From: Cyanobium sp. NS01
GTDB lineage: Bacteria; Cyanobacteriota; Cyanobacteriia; PCC-6307; Cyanobiaceae
NCBI RefSeq assembly: GCF_014280235.1
Contig: NZ_CP047940.1
Coordinates: 1,860,001 to 1,924,000 of the forward strand
DNA: 64,000 nt
Direction of reading: 5' to 3'
The notes beneath the pieces are model-generated. The model was given only the letters and a program-made list of their open reading frames with translations, was not told the DNA's origin and searched no databases. The position numbers and the translations under genes are program-made. Positions 51,717-64,000 of this stretch are shown here, one piece after another. Each line of letters starts with the position of its first letter. The first letter of the stretch is position 1.

Positions 51717-53246
51717 ATGACGGCACTCAGCTTCGTGGAGCTGCAGCGGCAGCTGCAGCCCTCCTGGGGCCACACCGCCGGCGGCATGGGCCCGGAGGTG
51801 GACGTGCTGCTGGTGCCCTCGCTCTCGATGGACCAGAGCCAGATGGCCCTGGTCACGGGGTCGCACCACTACGAGGAGCGCCAGCTGTTCGCCCTGATCG
51901 GGCTGCGCCACCCGGGGGTGCGCATGGTGTATGCCAGCAGCAAGCCCCTGGCCGAGCTGGTGGTGGATGCGGTGCTGGAGCTGCTGCCGGGGGTGCCCAC
52001 CTCCCACGCCCGCCGCCGCCTGCACCTGTTCGACACCGACGACGCCTCGGGCCGCCCCCTCACCGCCAAGCTGCTGGAGCGGCCCGCCCTGCTGGCCCGC
52101 ATCGGCGAACTGCTGCGGCCGGGCCGCAGTTTCATCAGCTGTTTCGTGGTGAGCGAGCTGGAACGGGAGCTGTCGGAGCGCCTGCAGGTGCCGCTGCTGG
52201 GCACCTCCCCCCACCTGCTGCAGTGGGGCAGCAAGGCCGGCAGCCGTGCCCTGTTTCGGCGTTGCGGTGTGCCCCACCCGCCCGGCAGCGAGCGGGTGTT
52301 CGACCTGGCCAGCCTGGCGGAGGCCACAGCCGACCTCTGGGAGCAGCATCCCGGGCTGGAGCGCTGCGTGGTGAAGCTCAACGAGGGCTTCAGCGGCGAG
52401 GGCAACGCCCTGCTGGAGCTGGCCCCACTGCAGCTTCAGGAGCACTCAGCGCCACAGCGGCGGCAGCTGCTGCGCCAGGCGCTGGAGCAGCTGCCGATGC
52501 CGGCGCCCGCCTGGCGGGAGCTGATGGCCCGCCAGGGCGCCCTGGTGGAGGCCTGGCTGCAGGGGGGTGAGGCCCTGCGCTCCCCCAGCGTTCAGGGGAT
52601 CATCCATCCGGGGGCGGACGGACGCCCCGGCGCCGTGGAGGTGCTCTCCACCCATGAGCAGGTGCTGGGGGGGCCGAGCGGCCAGACCTACCTGGGCTGC
52701 AGCTTCCCCGCCAGCGAGGACTACCGCCGCGAGCTGATGGCCCATGGGCTGGCCATCGGCCGGGCCCTGGCGGCCGAGGGAGCCCTGGAACGCTATGCCG
52801 TGGACTTCATCGCCCGGCGTTTCGGCGCACGATGGGAGCTGCAGGCGATCGAGATCAACCTGCGCCAGGGGGGCACCACACACCCCTACATGGCCCTGCA
52901 CGCCATCACCAGCGGCCGGCTCGACCCCGCCGACGGGCTCTACCGCTCCCCCACCGGCGCCGCGCTGCACTACCGGGCCACCGATAACTTCTGCGCAGCC
53001 CAGCTGCGCGGCCTGCTGCCGATCGACCTGATCGACATCGTGGCGGAAGCGGGCCTGCACTACGACCCGGCCCAGCTGCGCGGCAGTGTGTTCCACCTGC
53101 TGGGCTGCCTCTCGGAGTACGGCAAGCTCGGCATGACCTGCATCGGCCGCAGTGCGGCGGAGGCGGAAGCGGTGTACCGGGCCACCGAGCAGCGGCTGGT
53201 GGAGGCCGCCGCTGAGCGCCATGGAGTTGCTGTTGATGCGCACTAA
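51717..53246 (+). CDS. ATP-grasp ligase with PGM1-like C-terminal domain
   Basis: A 509-residue ATP-grasp protein resembling the peptide ligase PGM1 of pheganomycin synthesis. An N-domain (VDVLLVPSLSMDQSQMALVT, YEERQLFALIGL) is followed by the ATP-grasp region: KAGSRALFRRCGVPHPPGS, VVKLNEGFSGEGNALLEL, LVEAWLQGGEA, AVDFIARRF and EINLRQGGTTHPYMAL with metal and phosphate residues. A C-domain ends FHLLGCLSEYGKLGMTCIG. It joins a carboxylate to an amine, but the substrates are unknown. Coupled to pgpH by position; its last codons overlap the vapBC operator. ATG at 51717 with a good GGGGGAAGAAGG ribosome site. Confidence 0.82.
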   Translation: MTALSFVELQRQLQPSWGHTAGGMGPEVDVLLVPSLSMDQSQMALVTGSHHYEERQLFALIGLRHPGVRMVYASSKPLAELVVDAVLELLPGVPTSHARRRLHLFDTDDASGRPLTAKLLERPALLARIGELLRPGRSFISCFVVSELERELSERLQVPLLGTSPHLLQWGSKAGSRALFRRCGVPHPPGSERVFDLASLAEATADLWEQHPGLERCVVKLNEGFSGEGNALLELAPLQLQEHSAPQRRQLLRQALEQLPMPAPAWRELMARQGALVEAWLQGGEALRSPSVQGIIHPGADGRPGAVEVLSTHEQVLGGPSGQTYLGCSFPASEDYRRELMAHGLAIGRALAAEGALERYAVDFIARRFGARWELQAIEINLRQGGTTHPYMALHAITSGRLDPADGLYRSPTGAALHYRATDNFCAAQLRGLLPIDLIDIVAEAGLHYDPAQLRGSVFHLLGCLSEYGKLGMTCIGRSAAEAEAVYRATEQRLVEAAAERHGVAVDAH

Positions 53247-53279
53247 GATGCGCACATATCACCGGGGTGGTATGCGCAC
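53236..53279. promoter_or_regulatory. vapBC operator: three ATGCGCAC repeats
   Basis: ATGCGCAC occurs at 53236, 53248 and 53272, 12 and 24 bp apart, so all lie on a 12-bp register. Each contains the palindrome TGCGCA. The first two lie over the end of the ATP-grasp gene and the third contains the vapB ATG. A weak promoter (TTGATG at 53233, CATATC at 53255) fits between them. VapB ribbon-helix-helix dimers bind such repeats in known systems; here it is inference. Confidence 0.6.
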
Positions 53280-53511
53280 GACGCTGGATCTTCCGGATCC
53301 GCTCTTCGAAAGGCTGAAGGCGCGGGCGGCCAGCCAGCGCATGACGCTCAAACAACTGCTGCGCAGCTACGTGGAGCAGGGGCTCAGCACCGTTCAAGAC
53401 GTTGACCCGCGTGGCCGTTCCGCCGCCGAGCTGCCGCGACTGGACGGCCCCCTGAGGCTGGGGCGTGAGCACTGCAGCAATGCAGGGCTGTTTGAGCTGC
53501 TCGACCCGTGA
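53272..53511 (+). CDS. vapB: VapB-like ribbon-helix-helix antitoxin
   Basis: A 79-residue protein. MRTTLDLPDPLFERLKARAA then SQRMTLKQLLRSYVEQGL is an N-terminal ribbon-helix-helix DNA-binding fold; the C-terminal half (LDGPLRLGREHCSNAGLFEL) would bind and block the toxin. ATG at 53272 follows GGGGTGG; earlier in-frame ATGs at 53221-53248 would overlap the upstream gene. Its stop overlaps vapC's GTG (GTGA). Confidence 0.85.
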   Translation: MRTTLDLPDPLFERLKARAASQRMTLKQLLRSYVEQGLSTVQDVDPRGRSAAELPRLDGPLRLGREHCSNAGLFELLDP

Positions 53512-53942
53512 GCACCAGCACCGACCTGCCGGATCTCAATGTGTGGCTGGCGCTGGCCGCCGCTGACCATCTGCACCACCGCCAGGCCCTGCACTACTGG
53601 GAACAGCAGGCGGCTGAACAAGTGCTGTTCTGTACGGTGACGGCCCTTGGGCTGGTGCGGCTTCTGAGCCAGCCCAGGCTGATGGGTGCTGCCGTCAAGA
53701 GCGCCGCCGAGGCCTCGGCGCTGCTCGAGGCGTTCTGCCATCAACCCGGCGTGGCGCTGGCCGTACCAGCCGATCACGGCTGGGAGGTGTTCCACCGGCT
53801 GTTGCGCCAGGGAGACCTGCCCCCACGGCTCTGCACCGATGCCTACCTGGCCGCGCTGGCCATGGCCAACGGCTGGCGCCTGGTGAGTTTCGATCGGGAT
53901 TTCGAGCGTTTTCGGGGCCTGCAACGGCTGGCGCTGAGCTGA
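53508..53942 (+). CDS. vapC: VapC-like PIN-domain toxin (ribonuclease)
   Basis: A 144-residue PIN domain nuclease. Acidic metal ligands in LPDLNVWLALAAADHLHH (Asp near residue 9), the central helix with FCTVTALGLVRLL (a substituted T-x-x-G-L-V-R-L variant typical of one VapC group), CTDAYLAALAMANGWRL (Asp) and VSFDRDFERF (Asp). It would cleave RNA when released from VapB. GTG start in a GTGA overlap. Convergent with galE, 5 bp apart. Confidence 0.87.
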   Translation: MSTSTDLPDLNVWLALAAADHLHHRQALHYWEQQAAEQVLFCTVTALGLVRLLSQPRLMGAAVKSAAEASALLEAFCHQPGVALAVPADHGWEVFHRLLRQGDLPPRLCTDAYLAALAMANGWRLVSFDRDFERFRGLQRLALS

Positions 53943-56504: not shown

Positions 56505-56783
56505 GTGATTCATGGCTTCCGCCACAAGGGGCTGCGATTGTTCTTCGAGACAGGCAGCACGGCAGGGATTCAGCCAGCCCTTGCCCGCAAGCTGAGGTTG
56601 CAGCTGGCGGCCTTGCAATCCGCTGCCCTGATCGAGGATCTCGATTTGCCGGGCTATCGCCTGCATCCGCTCAAGGGGGCAGACAAGGGGCGATGGTCGA
56701 TCTGGGTGAACGGCAACTGGCGGCTCACGTTTGCGTTCCGCGATGGCCACGTGTTCGATCTCGACTTTGAGGACTACCACTGA
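56505..56783 (+). CDS. higB: HigB-like toxin (RelE/ParE fold)
   Basis: A 92-residue killer-type toxin: MIHGFRHKGLRLFFETGSTA is the characteristic HigB N-terminus, LIEDLDLPGYRLHPLKGADK and WSIWVNGNWRLTFAFRDGHV the RelE-fold core, ending DLDFEDYH. Such toxins cut mRNA on the ribosome. GTG start at 56505 fixed by family N-termini. The antitoxin ATG shares one base with its stop. Confidence 0.92.
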   Translation: MIHGFRHKGLRLFFETGSTAGIQPALARKLRLQLAALQSAALIEDLDLPGYRLHPLKGADKGRWSIWVNGNWRLTFAFRDGHVFDLDFEDYH

Positions 56784-57076
56784 TGCAGATGCACAATCCG
56801 CCCCACCCCGGGGAATTCATCGAAGGGGTGTATCTGGAGCCCTGTGAGCTCTCCATCAGACAGGTGGCCGAGCACTTGGGGGTTTCGGCATCCACCTTTC
56901 AGAGGCTGGTGGCAGGCAAAAGCCGTGTGTCCCCGGATATGGCGCTGCGCCTGTCGCGGGTGCTAGGGCGCAGTGCTGAAAGCTGGCTAGCCATGCAGGA
57001 CAGCCACGATCTCTGGCAGGCCCGGCAGCGACTCGATCTTTCTGGACTGACCCCGATGGAGCTCACGCCGGCATGA
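56783..57076 (+). CDS. higA: HigA-like antitoxin (XRE-family HTH)
   Basis: A 97-residue antitoxin: HPGEFIEGVYLEPCELSIRQ begins the HigA signature, VAEHLGVSASTFQRLVAGKS the helix-turn-helix, ALRLSRVLGRSAESWLAMQD the dimer helices. Normally binds HigB and represses the operon. ATG at 56783 (or 56789). Its TGA overlaps the rfbD ATG (ATGA), so rfbD is read from the toxin-antitoxin transcript. Confidence 0.92.
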   Translation: MQMHNPPHPGEFIEGVYLEPCELSIRQVAEHLGVSASTFQRLVAGKSRVSPDMALRLSRVLGRSAESWLAMQDSHDLWQARQRLDLSGLTPMELTPA

Positions 57077-58499: not shown

Positions 58500-59702
58500 G
58501 TGCCTGAAGCCGCTCCGCCAAACGTGCAAGCCCTGCTCGCCGGCCGCCGCCGCATCCTGGTGACCGGCGGCGGCGGCTTCATCGGCGGGGCCGTGGTACG
58601 CCGCCTGCTGGCCGAGAGCAACGCGCTGGTGTTCAACCTCGACAAGTGCGGCTACGCCAGCGATCTCACCAGCATCGAGCAGGTGCTGGCGGAGCTGGGC
58701 GATCGCGCCTCCACCCCAGAGGGCAATAGCCGCCACCAGCTGCTCCAGGTGGATCTCACCGACGCAGACGCCACGGCGGAGGCGGTGCGCCAGGCCGATC
58801 CGGATCTGGTGCTGCACCTGGCGGCCGAGAGCCACGTGGACCGCTCGATCGAGGGCCCCGGTGCCTTCATCGCCAGCAACGTGACTGGCACCTTCCAGCT
58901 GCTGCAGGCGGTGCGGGCCCACTGGCAGCAGCTGCCGGCCGAGCGCCAGGCGGCCTTCCGCTTCCACCACATCTCCACCGATGAGGTGTTCGGCTCCCTC
59001 GGCGCAACCGGCCGCTTTTCCGAAACCACCCCCTACGACCCCCGCAGCCCCTATTCGGCCAGCAAGGCGGCCAGCGACCACCTGGTGAACGCCTGGCACC
59101 ACACCTACGGCCTGCCGGTGGTGCTCACCAACTGCTCCAACAACTACGGTCCCTGGCAGTTCCCCGAGAAGCTGATCCCGGTGGTGATCCTCAAGGCGGC
59201 CGCCGGCGAGCCGATCCCGCTCTATGGCGATGGCCAGAACGTGCGCGACTGGCTGTATGTGGAAGACCACGTGGATGCCCTGTTGCTGGCGGCAACCCAT
59301 GGGCAGCTGGGGCGCAGCTACTGCGTGGGCGGCCATGGCGAGCGCACCAACAAGCAGGTGGTGGAGGCGATCTGCCAGGCGCTCGACCAGCTGCTGCCCG
59401 CAGGTGCTCCCCACAGCCGGCTGATCACGCCGGTGAGCGACCGCCCGGGCCACGACCGGCGCTACGCGATCGATCCCACCCGGATCAGCACGGAGCTGGG
59501 CTGGCAGCCGCGCCACAGCTTTGAGGAGGGCCTGGCGGCCACGGTGTGCTGGACTCTGGAGCAGCAAGGCTGGTGCCAGCGGGTGCGGGAGCAGGGCGGC
59601 TACAGCGGCGGTCGGATGGGGGTGCTGACGGGAAACACGAAACGAGATCCAGCCCCAAGGAATGCCGCAGGGAATACCCGACAGAACAGGAACTCCGTGT
59701 AA
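58500..59702 (+). CDS. rfbB: dTDP-glucose 4,6-dehydratase
   Basis: A 400-residue SDR enzyme of the dTDP-sugar pathway. NAD loop ILVTGGGGFIGGAVVRRLL, HLAAESHVDRSIEGP, HISTDEVFGSLG with the catalytic Asp-Glu, PYSASKAASDHLVNAWHHTY (Tyr-Lys), NCSNNYGPWQFPEKLIPV and VSDRPGHDRRYAIDP. GTG at 58500. The last ~25 residues after MGVLTG (KRDPAPRNAAGN and on) are not family-like and coincide with the drop in GC content, so the 3' end marks the island junction. Confidence 0.93.
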   Translation: MPEAAPPNVQALLAGRRRILVTGGGGFIGGAVVRRLLAESNALVFNLDKCGYASDLTSIEQVLAELGDRASTPEGNSRHQLLQVDLTDADATAEAVRQADPDLVLHLAAESHVDRSIEGPGAFIASNVTGTFQLLQAVRAHWQQLPAERQAAFRFHHISTDEVFGSLGATGRFSETTPYDPRSPYSASKAASDHLVNAWHHTYGLPVVLTNCSNNYGPWQFPEKLIPVVILKAAAGEPIPLYGDGQNVRDWLYVEDHVDALLLAATHGQLGRSYCVGGHGERTNKQVVEAICQALDQLLPAGAPHSRLITPVSDRPGHDRRYAIDPTRISTELGWQPRHSFEEGLAATVCWTLEQQGWCQRVREQGGYSGGRMGVLTGNTKRDPAPRNAAGNTRQNRNSV

Positions 59703-59728: not shown

Positions 59729-60382
59729 ATGAAGCGCTCGTCAATACTTGCCCATCGAGGAATGTTTTCAAGTGAATCCGAAAAGAATTCACCGGAAGCA
59801 TTAAGAAGAGCACTTGACGAAGGATTTGGAATCGAGACCGACCTCCGAGATCTTGATGGCAGGGTAGTTATTTCACACGACCCCCCCCGAGGGAATCCTT
59901 TGCCTAGTACTTTTGAGTGGCTTCTTGAGCAGGTCGCCTCGTCACCATCAGCCGGTCGCATTGGTCTAAATATTAAGTCGGACGGCCTGTCAGTAATGAT
60001 TGAATCAGAATTAAAAGCCATAGGACTTGATATCGACCGATTTTTTGGCTTCGATATGTCAGTGCCAGACGGCCTTTCATATTTAAAAGGATCTCTTCCC
60101 GTGTACTCCCGAATTAGCGATTACGAACCCATGCCGGCCTTTCTAGACAGGGCCAAGGGAGTATGGGTTGACAACTTCAGCGGATCTTTTCAGCAAGTAA
60201 AGCGCGCGAAGGATTTGATAGACCAAGGGGTTAGAGTCGCAGTAGTCTCACCAGAACTACATCGTCGCAACCATGAGAGTTTGTGGAATGAAATCGTGGA
60301 AGAAGAGCTGCATCTGAGCCCACTCTTCGAACTGTGCACTGATTTTCCGGTGGAAGCAGCCAACCGATTCTGCAAGGCCTGA
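59729..60382 (+). CDS. GDPD/PI-PLC-like phosphodiesterase
   Basis: A 217-residue TIM-barrel protein of the glycerophosphodiester phosphodiesterase group: SSILAHRGMFSSESEKNSPE with the catalytic HR, GFGIETDLRDLDGRVVISHD with E-x-D and HD. It would cleave a glycerophospho- or related phosphodiester; a role in trimming or recycling glycan phosphodiesters is possible. ATG at 59729; the earlier frame belongs to the rfbB overlap. First gene of the AT-richer operon, 6 bp before the HAD gene. Confidence 0.78.
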   Translation: MKRSSILAHRGMFSSESEKNSPEALRRALDEGFGIETDLRDLDGRVVISHDPPRGNPLPSTFEWLLEQVASSPSAGRIGLNIKSDGLSVMIESELKAIGLDIDRFFGFDMSVPDGLSYLKGSLPVYSRISDYEPMPAFLDRAKGVWVDNFSGSFQQVKRAKDLIDQGVRVAVVSPELHRRNHESLWNEIVEEELHLSPLFELCTDFPVEAANRFCKA

Positions 60383-60388
60383 CCCGCA

Positions 60389-61012
60389 ATGATTAAAGCG
60401 ATCCTTTTCGACATGGACGGAGTTCTTATTGATGCCAAGGACTGGCATTATGAGGCTCTTAATCGTGCGCTTGAGCACTTTGGATACACGATCAGCCGAG
60501 AGAGCCATCTTTCCACCTTTGACGGCCTGCCAACACGGGACAAACTCCGCATGCTCTCCAGCTCAAGAGGCTTACCAGAGGGCCTTCACGACTTTCTCAA
60601 TGCGCTGAAGCAGGCATACACGCTGGAAATTAGCTACCAACGCTGCAAGCCGGTGTTCAATCACCAATACGCCCTTACTCGCCTCAGAAGAGATGGCTAT
60701 AAGCTAGCAGTGTGCTCGAACTCTGTCCGGCAGTCAATCGAAGCGATGATGAGGCTTTCCGCACTATCCGCCAATCTTGACTTGATTGTATCCAACCAAG
60801 ACGTTGAGAAGGGAAAGCCCGATCCAGAAATGTACCTTAAAGCGATGAAGAGCTTAAATGTTGAACCGCATGAATGCTTGATTCTTGAGGATAATGAACA
60901 CGGCATCCAAGCTGCAGTTACATCGGGCGGTCACCTGCTCAGAATAGGCGAACCTGATGACGTGACATATCAAGCGATTACAACCCGTATCAGTGAAGTC
61001 GAGCCCGCTTAA
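60389..61012 (+). CDS. HAD-family phosphatase
   Basis: A 207-residue haloacid-dehalogenase-type phosphatase: motif I KAILFDMDGVLIDAKDWHYE (nucleophile Asp), cap helices, motif II AVCSNSV, Lys of motif III in EKGKPDPEMYLKA, motif IV CLILEDNEHGIQAA. Resembles the beta-phosphoglucomutase/sugar-phosphatase branch. Likely removes phosphate from a sugar or polyol intermediate for the adjacent nucleotidyltransferases. ATG at 60389; the next gene starts 4 bp after its stop. Confidence 0.88.
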   Translation: MIKAILFDMDGVLIDAKDWHYEALNRALEHFGYTISRESHLSTFDGLPTRDKLRMLSSSRGLPEGLHDFLNALKQAYTLEISYQRCKPVFNHQYALTRLRRDGYKLAVCSNSVRQSIEAMMRLSALSANLDLIVSNQDVEKGKPDPEMYLKAMKSLNVEPHECLILEDNEHGIQAAVTSGGHLLRIGEPDDVTYQAITTRISEVEPA

Positions 61013-61016
61013 ACCC

Positions 61017-62531
61017 ATGCAGATCCTCATCCCGATTTCAGGATACTCAGCTTTCTTTTCAAAAGAAGATTATTATTTTCCAAAGCCACTAATTGAGGTG
61101 GCTGGCATAGCAATGATTGAAGTTGTCGTCAGACAACTACAGCGTCAGTTTAAGGATGCACGTTTTATTTTTGTCATCGACCCAGAGGATGCTCGCTCGT
61201 TCTCTCTAGACCGAACTCTGCAGCTTCTCGCCGGAGATAATACAAAGATCATAGAAAAGCCTGGCCCAACATCTGGGGCACTCTGCTCCTGCTTGTTAGC
61301 AATAGATACTCTAGATATCAATGAGCCGTTGATCATCGCCAATAGCGATCAGATTATCGAAGATGACCTGGCGCAAGCAGTTGAGACTCTCAGCGCTAAC
61401 GACTGCTCAGCCGGGGTAATCACCTTTGAATCAATCCATCCCAGATGGTCTTATGTCGTAGACGATGAGCAGGGCGAAGTGATTCAGACCTTTGAGAAGA
61501 AGGTTGCTTCTCGCAATGCCATTGCAGGTTTCTATTACTTCAGGACGGCCTCTGCTTTTGTTGAAGCAGCAAAGCAAGTCATCTTGAACGATGCACAAGT
61601 AGATGGTGTTTACTTCATTTCGTCGTCACTCAACGAAATTATTCTCGAGGGAGGAAGAGTTCTTCAGCTGCCGATTGCAAGCCATGCATATCATTCTTTT
61701 TATGCGCCAGGAAAGATTGCAGACTTTGAGCGATCCGCCTATGCGAAGGAGCTTAGGGAAGGCACGCTTGCTCAAAAAGCAGTCAATGTGATCATTCCAG
61801 CTGCCGGTGAAGGAAGCCGGTTTGCAAAAGCAGGATGGAAGAAACCAAAGCCATTCATTGATGTTGACGGGCAACTGATGCTGGAGCATGTCATTAACAA
61901 TGTCACGCCCACAGAAGCTGCCGTTACAATCCTTCTTCGCCAAGAGCATCTTGATGCTCATCCTAAAATTGCTTATAGATTGCAAGAAAACGGCCATCGC
62001 ATTACTTCGGTATCTCGGTTAACGGAGGGAACCGCATCAACCGTTCTGTTGGCAAGGCGAACGTTTGACAATGAACAGCCGATGATGGTGGCCAATTCAG
62101 ACCAGCTCGTTGATTTTGACGTCAACGACTTTATTGAGGACTGCATACAGCGCAAGCTGGATGGCTCAATACTGGTCTTTCGAGATCCGTCAATGGACCC
62201 CAAGTGGTCTTTTGCGAGAGTTGATGAGGCCGGGCTTGTGCTTGAAGTAGCAGAGAAAAAGCCAATATCCGACTTGGCCACAGTTGGCATCTATCTATTC
62301 GCAAAGGGCAAGGATTTTGTTGGAGCAGCATTGGATATGATGGTTGCCAACGATCGCGTGAATGACGAGTTTTACACGTGTCCCGTCTACAATTACATGA
62401 TCCAAAATGGTGCCCGAATTGGGATTTATGAAGTCCCGATGGATGCGATGTCAGGTCTAGGGACACCAGACGATCTCAACCAGTTCCTGCAGGAACGTGG
62501 TGCCTCACCATCCATTGACTCCCCGGATTGA
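61017..62531 (+). CDS. Protein with two fused nucleotidyltransferase domains
   Basis: A 504-residue protein made of two related GT-A nucleotidyltransferase domains. Domain 2 (from residue 256) has the canonical signature VIIPAAGEGSRFAKAGWKKP then KPFIDV, with ANSDQLVDFD as the metal site. Domain 1 starts QILIPISGYSAFFSKEDYYF then PKPLIEV, keeping PKP but lacking the Gly-rich R-F loop; its metal site is ANSDQIIEDD. Both continue with a W-S-(Y/F)-(V/A) strand and EKK-x(n)-A-x-(A/V)-G-(F/I)-Y. It probably activates a sugar or polyol phosphate with an NTP, with one domain possibly regulatory. ATG at 61017. Confidence 0.85.
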   Translation: MQILIPISGYSAFFSKEDYYFPKPLIEVAGIAMIEVVVRQLQRQFKDARFIFVIDPEDARSFSLDRTLQLLAGDNTKIIEKPGPTSGALCSCLLAIDTLDINEPLIIANSDQIIEDDLAQAVETLSANDCSAGVITFESIHPRWSYVVDDEQGEVIQTFEKKVASRNAIAGFYYFRTASAFVEAAKQVILNDAQVDGVYFISSSLNEIILEGGRVLQLPIASHAYHSFYAPGKIADFERSAYAKELREGTLAQKAVNVIIPAAGEGSRFAKAGWKKPKPFIDVDGQLMLEHVINNVTPTEAAVTILLRQEHLDAHPKIAYRLQENGHRITSVSRLTEGTASTVLLARRTFDNEQPMMVANSDQLVDFDVNDFIEDCIQRKLDGSILVFRDPSMDPKWSFARVDEAGLVLEVAEKKPISDLATVGIYLFAKGKDFVGAALDMMVANDRVNDEFYTCPVYNYMIQNGARIGIYEVPMDAMSGLGTPDDLNQFLQERGASPSIDSPD

Positions 62532-62536
62532 CACCG

Positions 62537-63238
62537 ATGCACGTAATTGTTCCTCTAGCCGGCCCCGACTTCGTGCGGGCAGACGGAAGTATTAAAGCCC
62601 TAGATTCCTTTCAAGGCCAGCCTCTCCTTAGATATGCACTCGATTCCAGGCCGTGGGCTTCAAAGGCTATCAGCCATTCATTTGTTCTTTATGATTGCGA
62701 GGAAACAAGACGGTTCGCCCATGACTGCCTAAAGCAATGGTACGAGGGATGCTCTATTGTTTACCTAGATTCATTTAGCCGTGGAGCCGCAATTAGTACC
62801 CTTGCGGGTCTTTCGACACTAAATGAGTTTTGCCATCCTTTGATAATTGACTTGGCCGATATTATTTACAAAAGTAATGCAAGTATTGAACAAGTGCTTC
62901 AAGCAGGCCCAGACATAGGCGGCATTGCCTTGGTATTTCAGTCGCAAAATCCTCAATACAGCTATTTGGCAAGTGACGCTAATGGTCGAGTCGTCGGAGC
63001 AGCAGAGAAGAAAGTGATTTCAGATCAGGCATCAGCGGGCACTTACATCTTTCGTGACTGCTCAACCGTTCTAAAAGCCTTAGCCCATGCAATTGACAAT
63101 GAGCCTAGCCACACACACAACGATCTATTTTATGTGTGCCCCCTCTTCAATGGTGTCATTGCCCAGGGAAAACAGGTGACACTCGAGCGCGCCTATGATA
63201 TTATAGACTGTAAGTTTCATAGACCCTTATATGGCTGA
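62537..63238 (+). CDS. Third nucleotidyltransferase-like protein
   Basis: A 233-residue single-domain relative of the preceding protein's domains. MHVIVPLAGPDFVRADGSIK at the start, SRGAAISTLAGL, a metal site IIDLADIIYKSN in place of NSDQ, then PQYSYLASDANGRVVGAAEK and KVISDQASAGTYIF. The Gly-rich loop is degenerate (AGPDFVRADG). Activity is uncertain; it could be a partner or a diverged enzyme. ATG at 62537. The next gene overlaps by 8 bases. Confidence 0.72.
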   Translation: MHVIVPLAGPDFVRADGSIKALDSFQGQPLLRYALDSRPWASKAISHSFVLYDCEETRRFAHDCLKQWYEGCSIVYLDSFSRGAAISTLAGLSTLNEFCHPLIIDLADIIYKSNASIEQVLQAGPDIGGIALVFQSQNPQYSYLASDANGRVVGAAEKKVISDQASAGTYIFRDCSTVLKALAHAIDNEPSHTHNDLFYVCPLFNGVIAQGKQVTLERAYDIIDCKFHRPLYG

Positions 63239-63569
63239 GCTTCGAGAGCTTACCCAGCAATATGTGGCAGCCTTCAATGCGAAAGACATAGATGGTGTAT
63301 CCGCCCTCTTGACGGAAGATTTCAGCATTACTGATCCTTCAGTTACGCAACTGGAACCCAGGGACAAGGCAATTGAATATATTCGTGGTTTATTTATGTC
63401 TAATTCAGTTTTGAGTTTTCAAGCGCTGGATATTATTGTAGGTGATGATATCACTGCCCTCCACTTTGCCCTATCTCTTGGTGAAGAGAGGTACCATGGA
63501 ATTGACTTAATTAACTGGAAGCAAGACAAGATCTCTTCTATTCTCGCTTACCTTACAAAGCAGTTCTAG
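63231..63569 (+). CDS. SnoaL/NTF2-like protein
   Basis: A 112-residue cone-shaped NTF2 fold: LRELTQQYVAAFNAKDIDGV then SALLTEDFSITDPS, KAIEYIRGLF, and beta-strands to the end (YHGIDLINWKQDKISSILAY). Such proteins are small isomerases, hydrolases or binding modules; found here at the end of a nucleotidyltransferase operon, it may act on a sugar or bind one. ATG at 63231. Confidence 0.8.
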   Translation: MAELRELTQQYVAAFNAKDIDGVSALLTEDFSITDPSVTQLEPRDKAIEYIRGLFMSNSVLSFQALDIIVGDDITALHFALSLGEERYHGIDLINWKQDKISSILAYLTKQF

Positions 63570-63811
63570 CCTATTTGGAGGGAAATCCAACCTTAGATTG
63601 CTTCTGAAGCAAACATATGCTAGTAGTATTTATTTATGCTTGCTACGTGCATTTTTCTTGATTAGGTCTTGCCTCTCATGCTTGACTCATCCCATCGTGC
63701 CTATTTGGAAAACTACAGCAAGAGCTTTTTGCCTTTTACAAGCTAATATGGCTCAGCATAGCATAACTGACTCTTCCAAAGCATGTCAATTACTTGTACA
63801 CCAATTCAGAA
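63570..63811. other. AT-rich gap before the last gene
   Basis: No convincing gene in 242 bp. A frame at 63598-63834 gives a cysteine-rich, Leu-rich translation with no family look and runs into the next gene, so it was not called. The stretch could hold a promoter for the gene at 63812, but no clear -35/-10 pair is seen. Confidence 0.4.
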
Positions 63812-64000
63812 ATGACCAGCCAGTTACCCGATAGTCCATGGTCTTTCTTGCTAGACGTCAAGAACTGCGATGACCCTAAAGAGCAAGTTGCTCGGATCCT
63901 CAAGCGCTATCCAGGTAGAGTTATCGATCTTGAGCAGATCGCGGATCTATACTGCTCTTTAATTGCACAACAAGAAGAGCTGCTAGGTGCAATTCCTCTT
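63812..64000 (+). CDS. Unknown protein, N-terminal part (runs off the window)
   Basis: ATG at 63812 opens a frame to the window end, 63 residues: MTSQLPDSPWSFLLDVKNCD, an apparent helix PKEQVARILKRYPG, then VIDLEQIADLYCSLIAQQEE. Hydrophilic and helical; no motif recognised. Base composition matches the island. Function not assignable from this part. Confidence 0.6.
   Translation, partial: MTSQLPDSPWSFLLDVKNCDDPKEQVARILKRYPGRVIDLEQIADLYCSLIAQQEELLGAIPL

Follow-up and report, generated by a model that had tools for sequence, protein, structure and literature searches.

A syntenic cassette of GDPD-fold, HAD and nucleotidyltransferase-fold genes as a probable pathway to a nucleotide-activated surface-glycan building block

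The five tightly packed genes described here form a functional unit that recurs as a module, with its members almost always side by side, in distant taxa. On balance, we think it probable that the proteins of this module work in the cytosol as a self-contained pathway and supply a surface glycan with a nucleotide-activated building block, for which an NDP-sugar is the likeliest candidate. This reading is based on the synteny of the genes, Rosetta-stone fusions, the signature and structural neighbours of one nucleotidyltransferase (NTase) domain, NT2, the glycan genes nearby, purifying selection and the HAD tree.

The cassette occupies positions 59729-63569, all on the + strand, of the window, the 64,000-nucleotide stretch that was analysed (bases 1860001-1924000 of a cyanobacterial genome that is assembled as one contig of 2.75 Mb). 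Its genes are separated by 4-6 nt or overlap slightly, in the order GDPD-like, HAD, fused double NTase, single NTase-like and SnoaL-like. An earlier note on this DNA had placed five tightly spaced genes here in an AT-rich island, and we find all five ORFs, with a GC content of 0.45-0.50 against about 0.70 around them. GC drops from about 0.70 near 59,500 and climbs again at IS elements approximately 2 kb beyond the window end. The features are as follows.

59729..60382, + strand, GDPD-fold protein, 217 aa, likely start ATG 59729
60389..61012, + strand, HAD hydrolase of the beta-phosphoglucomutase-like subfamily, 207 aa, likely start ATG 60389
61017..61740, + strand, NT1, N-terminal domain of the double protein, with a nucleotidyltransferase fold but lacking the GxGxR NTP loop
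61782..62531, + strand, NT2, C-terminal nucleotidyltransferase domain with a complete signature, predicted catalytic unit
62537..63238, + strand, NT3, separate degenerate nucleotidyltransferase-like protein, likely start ATG 62537
63231..63569, + strand, SnoaL-like (NTF2-fold) protein, accessory, likely start ATG 63231
63794..64000, + strand, 5' part of a 537-aa gene that runs past the window edge, putatively glycosyltransferase-like

The HAD gene begins 6 nt past the GDPD stop. Although a longer ORF for NT1-NT2 opens at GTG 60993, we set its likely start at ATG 61017, 4 nt past the HAD stop, because homologues begin at the later Met. The NT3 ORF opens at TTG 62528, overlapping the NT1-NT2 stop, and the SnoaL start overlaps NT3 by 8 nt. 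Pfam recognises the HAD protein (125 bits), an NTP_transferase domain in NT2 and SnoaL_2 (PF12680, 48.1 bits against a curated cut-off of 27), and neither the GDPD-like protein nor NT3 has a Pfam match. Purifying selection is seen in the four genes that the window has in common with the nearest cyanobacterial copy (dN/dS 0.10-0.23).

When GTDB representatives were scanned with the GDPD alignment as the sole seed, 412 relatives were obtained, of which the best 80 were fetched. By profile searches, the HAD subfamily is present in 79 of these 80 loci and an NT1/NT2 homologue in 77; where NT2 is missing, the contig is short or cut in most cases. The hosts of these best 80 belong, by record title, to about ten phyla. 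In addition, tblastn on plasmids revealed intact GDPD-HAD-NT1·NT2-NT3 sets in Rhizobium, Sinorhizobium and Azospirillum, and a Tropicibacter plasmid carries a full five-gene copy including the SnoaL-like gene. An outcome that the earlier note had named as refuting its reading, namely scattered genes that never co-occur, clearly does not hold, as the same set is syntenic in distant taxa. Within the order of the window genome, only 3 other genomes of 250 encode a double NTase of nearly full length with at least 46% identity, and none of 7 congeners has a match. In the HAD tree the window groups with Microcystis elabens FACHB-917, and next with Alphaproteobacteria, namely Roseobacteraceae/Paracoccaceae and Rhizobium (100/99 and 97/89). 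Together, this distribution and the tree placement fit a gain by horizontal transfer.

The module occurs in two layouts, namely layout A, with GDPD, HAD, a fused NT1·NT2 (a fusion present in 27 loci) and NT3, and layout B/C, with GDPD/HAD, separate NT1 and NT2, and a cupin of about 110 aa. NT3 is found in 26 loci and the cupin in 45, and both together in 0 of 80 (Fisher p 9e-14, a value that is too good since the loci are related). Two loci (L089 and L128) have a fused NT1·NT2 and a cupin instead of NT3, and both lie inside the A clade (98/85), which suggests a real replacement of one by the other; such a swap would be odd if either were an ordinary enzyme. The SnoaL-like protein is an accessory, present in a minority of copies: it occurs in 8 of the 80 loci as well as in the window, in Tropicibacter and in two cyanobacteria, and is sometimes fused to NT1 (L098, L114, L051).

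Among the three NTase domains, the signature is complete in NT2, which has AGEGSRF...PKP, NSDQ, KWS and EKK and keeps the GxGxR...PK signature and the metal-binding Asp. NT1 (in 75 rows) and NT3 (in 27 rows) no longer have the loop of this signature; both retain other family motifs, and the kinship of NT3 to NTases is evident from its alignment and a PDB match. The three domains are homologous, as had been proposed from the sequence, but they do not amount to three activating enzymes; NT2 is the only domain that looks catalytically complete and hence the predicted catalytic unit. NT1 and NT3 look like degenerate partners, with NT1 probably in a regulatory or structural role. A model of the double-domain protein has a pLDDT of 91 and a pTM of 0.54, the relative placement of its domains being uncertain, and its best structural neighbours are the sugar-1-phosphate NTases 4evw (Z 28), GlmU and GalU. 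The best match of both NT2 and NT1 in sequence and in fold is 4evw, a nucleoside-diphosphate-sugar pyrophosphorylase of Vibrio cholerae RC9 from structural genomics (E 1.9e-23 by sequence; Z 28.0, rmsd 2.0 over 230 residues by structure). Unlike the double-domain cassette protein, 4evw is a single domain, and its title gives a general name and no substrate. An in-frame duplication of approximately 31 residues is present at the domain junction of NT1-NT2 in Azospirillum lipoferum (L059:7013-8626).

The HAD protein is the most conserved of the gene set; 16 diverse copies agree in full at 54 alignment columns. The HAD catalytic residues, namely the DxD nucleophile/acid pair (D8, D10), the Ser of motif II (S110), the Lys of motif III (K143) and the E/D of motif IV (E167, D168), are found in 100% of 80 rows. 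It shares these residues and H20 with beta-phosphoglucomutase-like HADs (1lvh, 3kbb), at 27% identity to beta-PGM. In beta-PGM, the cap residues K45 and R49 hold the second phosphate, whereas the cassette HAD has D45 and T49, invariant across copies. A mutase role of the beta-PGM type is hence disfavoured, and the replacement favours a putative phosphatase with its own substrate. HAD and NT2 are fused in cyanophages and cyanobacteria, which supports the idea that the two act consecutively. Single HAD·NT2 proteins from cyanophages and picocyanobacteria are found at L041:5347-6732, L042:5347-6720, L048:7415-8788 and L049:7838-9202, and in the phages they lie amid glycosyltransferase genes. PHROG matches likewise include phage homologues, and a scan of viral contigs gave one good relative only.

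The GDPD-fold protein forms a TIM barrel over its whole length (model pLDDT 94.7), and shares this fold with solved members of the GDPD family (2pz0, 3no3 and GlpQ 5t9c; Z 18-20). The HRG...ExD...HD pattern is retained, with H9, R10, E36, D38 and H50 in 100% and D51 in 97% of 81 sequences. The Glu of the EIK motif is the third metal ligand in canonical GDPDs. Aligned to this Glu in 1o1z, the cassette protein has N81 (NIKxDG) in all 81 sequences, and it differs from the family further in its unique FDMSxPD and SPELH motifs and in the lack of a Pfam match. Thus the catalytic histidines are kept, and one metal ligand is altered (Glu to Asn) in every copy. The phosphodiester building block that the earlier note had suggested stays conjectural, its only pointer being this protein with its altered metal site.

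The genes around the cassette point to surface glycans. Upstream lie rmlD and rmlB-type genes, and downstream the 537-aa gene, transposases and a sulfotransferase-like gene (assigned by sequence motif only), followed by a GDP-heptose-type set (GHMP kinase, SIS isomerase, NTase and HAD) and glycosyltransferase genes. The reported absence of a glycosyltransferase was an effect of the window edge, as the glycosyltransferase-like 537-aa gene starts at 63794, and the proposed look beyond 64000 did find glycosyltransferase genes further on. Members of the family of the 537-aa gene (SGQxRG ... RIRPD) are found next to the module in L037, L071, L114 and L149 as well; no kinship of the 537-aa protein to WavE could be detected (hhalign probability 0.6%). 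Elsewhere, recurrent neighbours are an ABC exporter ATPase with its permease, WavE (21 loci), GDP-mannose dehydratase, GT4 and GT2, so that the suggested link of the module to surface glycans is borne out. In the window genome, the rml and heptose genes are separate and flank the module, and the dehydratases, kinases or reductases of Rml, GDP-heptose and CDP-6-glucitol operons are absent from inside the conserved module. In Pseudomonas copies, the stretch from the cupin to WavE repeatedly holds two families that Pfam does not recognise (L127:11303-13078, L094:13012-13680), of which the 591-aa one has glycosyltransferase-like motifs. Beside the rml genes of the window there are two toxin-antitoxin-like pairs (56505-57076 and 53152-53942; HigBA-like and VapBC-like in appearance), and an ATP-grasp protein with a PGM1_C domain, peptide-ligase-like, lies at 51717-53246.

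In the pathway that we infer, NT2 would couple an NTP with a sugar phosphate; NT1, which is part of the same protein here, and probably also NT3 would serve as its non-catalytic partners, and the HAD protein would remove or move a phosphate just before or after this step. The GDPD-fold enzyme might act on a phosphodiester intermediate or by-product, SnoaL, or the cupin in the other layout, might assist an isomerisation or epimerisation, and a neighbouring glycosyltransferase would then use the donor. We also entertain, as a tentative idea, that the GDPD-fold enzyme was recruited for an undescribed biosynthetic step in a new nucleotide-activated donor, for example the opening or forming of a cyclic or glycero-phosphodiester intermediate, and that the pseudo-NTase and the cupin are interchangeable partners of the catalytic NTase. 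Counting against the main reading are the phosphodiesterase-fold member, the two NTase-like proteins without an NTP signature, and the HAD with T49 in place of the R49 of beta-PGM, which leaves a mutase unsupported.

Several other explanations have to be weighed. The enzymes might offer another way to a known NDP-sugar, in which GDPD and SnoaL or the cupin would be housekeeping or proofreading partners; the familiar folds and the resemblance of NT2 to RmlA/GlmU-type enzymes would agree with this. However, over about ten phyla the conservation of GDPD, HAD and NT1 is no less strict than that of NT2, which fits an obligate multi-step pathway better than optional housekeeping, and rml genes are already present in the host a short way upstream, so that we hold this explanation to be possible but doubtful. 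Slightly less likely still is a nucleotide-activated polyol phosphate, similar to CDP-glycerol, for phosphodiester-linked glycan decorations, in which GDPD would trim or supply a glycerophospho unit. The GDPD-fold protein beside an NTase speaks for such a product, as does the existence of sugar-phosphate cytidylyltransferases for 6-linked alditols in Campylobacter capsules (PMC10918830), but the nearest solved relatives of NT2 are sugar-1-phosphate NTases. Moreover, the commonest neighbours are glycosyltransferases, dehydratases and exporters, and the 25 families that occur most often in 78 close neighbours include none of the phosphopolyol transferases (LicD, TagF-like, Stealth), which speaks weakly against a product of the teichoic type.

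A role in salvage, with the cassette breaking down fragments of glycans or lipids instead of building a product, as the phosphodiesterase-fold and phosphatase-family proteins could indicate, seems improbable to us, given that the cassette includes a full NTase and adjoins glycosyltransferases and exporters, and that no glycoside hydrolase was seen among the commonest neighbour families. The AT-rich patch with IS elements downstream might also have brought unrelated genes together by chance, but the same gene order in distant taxa refutes this and leaves it hardly any credence.

The surmise that the pathway is undescribed is supported, as we found no characterised equivalent and no description of the gene set in the open-access literature, to which the search was confined, so that the novelty is provisional. 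Open-access papers on WavE with an NTase, on bcbE and on fructose or polyol donors held nothing on the module, and papers on the P. syringae O-antigen do not mention the cassette genes. A BcbE-type gene occurs in the Pasteurella group; fructofuranose, which is carried by capsules of this group, was considered as a product and dropped, as the papers give no enzyme link. A second, apparently also uncharacterised cluster is present on an E. coli plasmid (L064) and in Hirschia (L066) and A. brasilense (L067), and comprises a double NTase, GtrA, GT2, a GDPD homologue, a phosphoribulokinase/uridine kinase-like protein, a HAD and a class II aldolase. Its GDPD is homologous to that of the cassette (hhalign 99.7%), its NTase is likewise a tandem, and it adds the kinase, aldolase and GtrA flippase, whereas the HAD subfamily and the cupin/NT3 of the cassette were not found in these three clusters. 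The CDP-6-D-glucitol pathway of Campylobacter jejuni HS:5, like the cassette, has an NTase and a partner enzyme dedicated to a capsule building block, but the partner is an oxidoreductase, and no phosphatase or phosphodiesterase is mentioned (PMC10918830).

Present in hundreds of genomes across about ten phyla, this strictly co-conserved set is probably a whole, so far unassigned route to a surface-glycan building block, the genes of which are currently annotated as "hypothetical protein", "HAD family phosphatase" or "glycosyltransferase family 2 protein", the last being a misnomer for the NTase. If this route were solved, a residue of many O-antigens and capsules could be named and a misannotation on a large scale put right; in addition, the mutual replacement of a pseudo-enzyme and a cupin would become open to testing.
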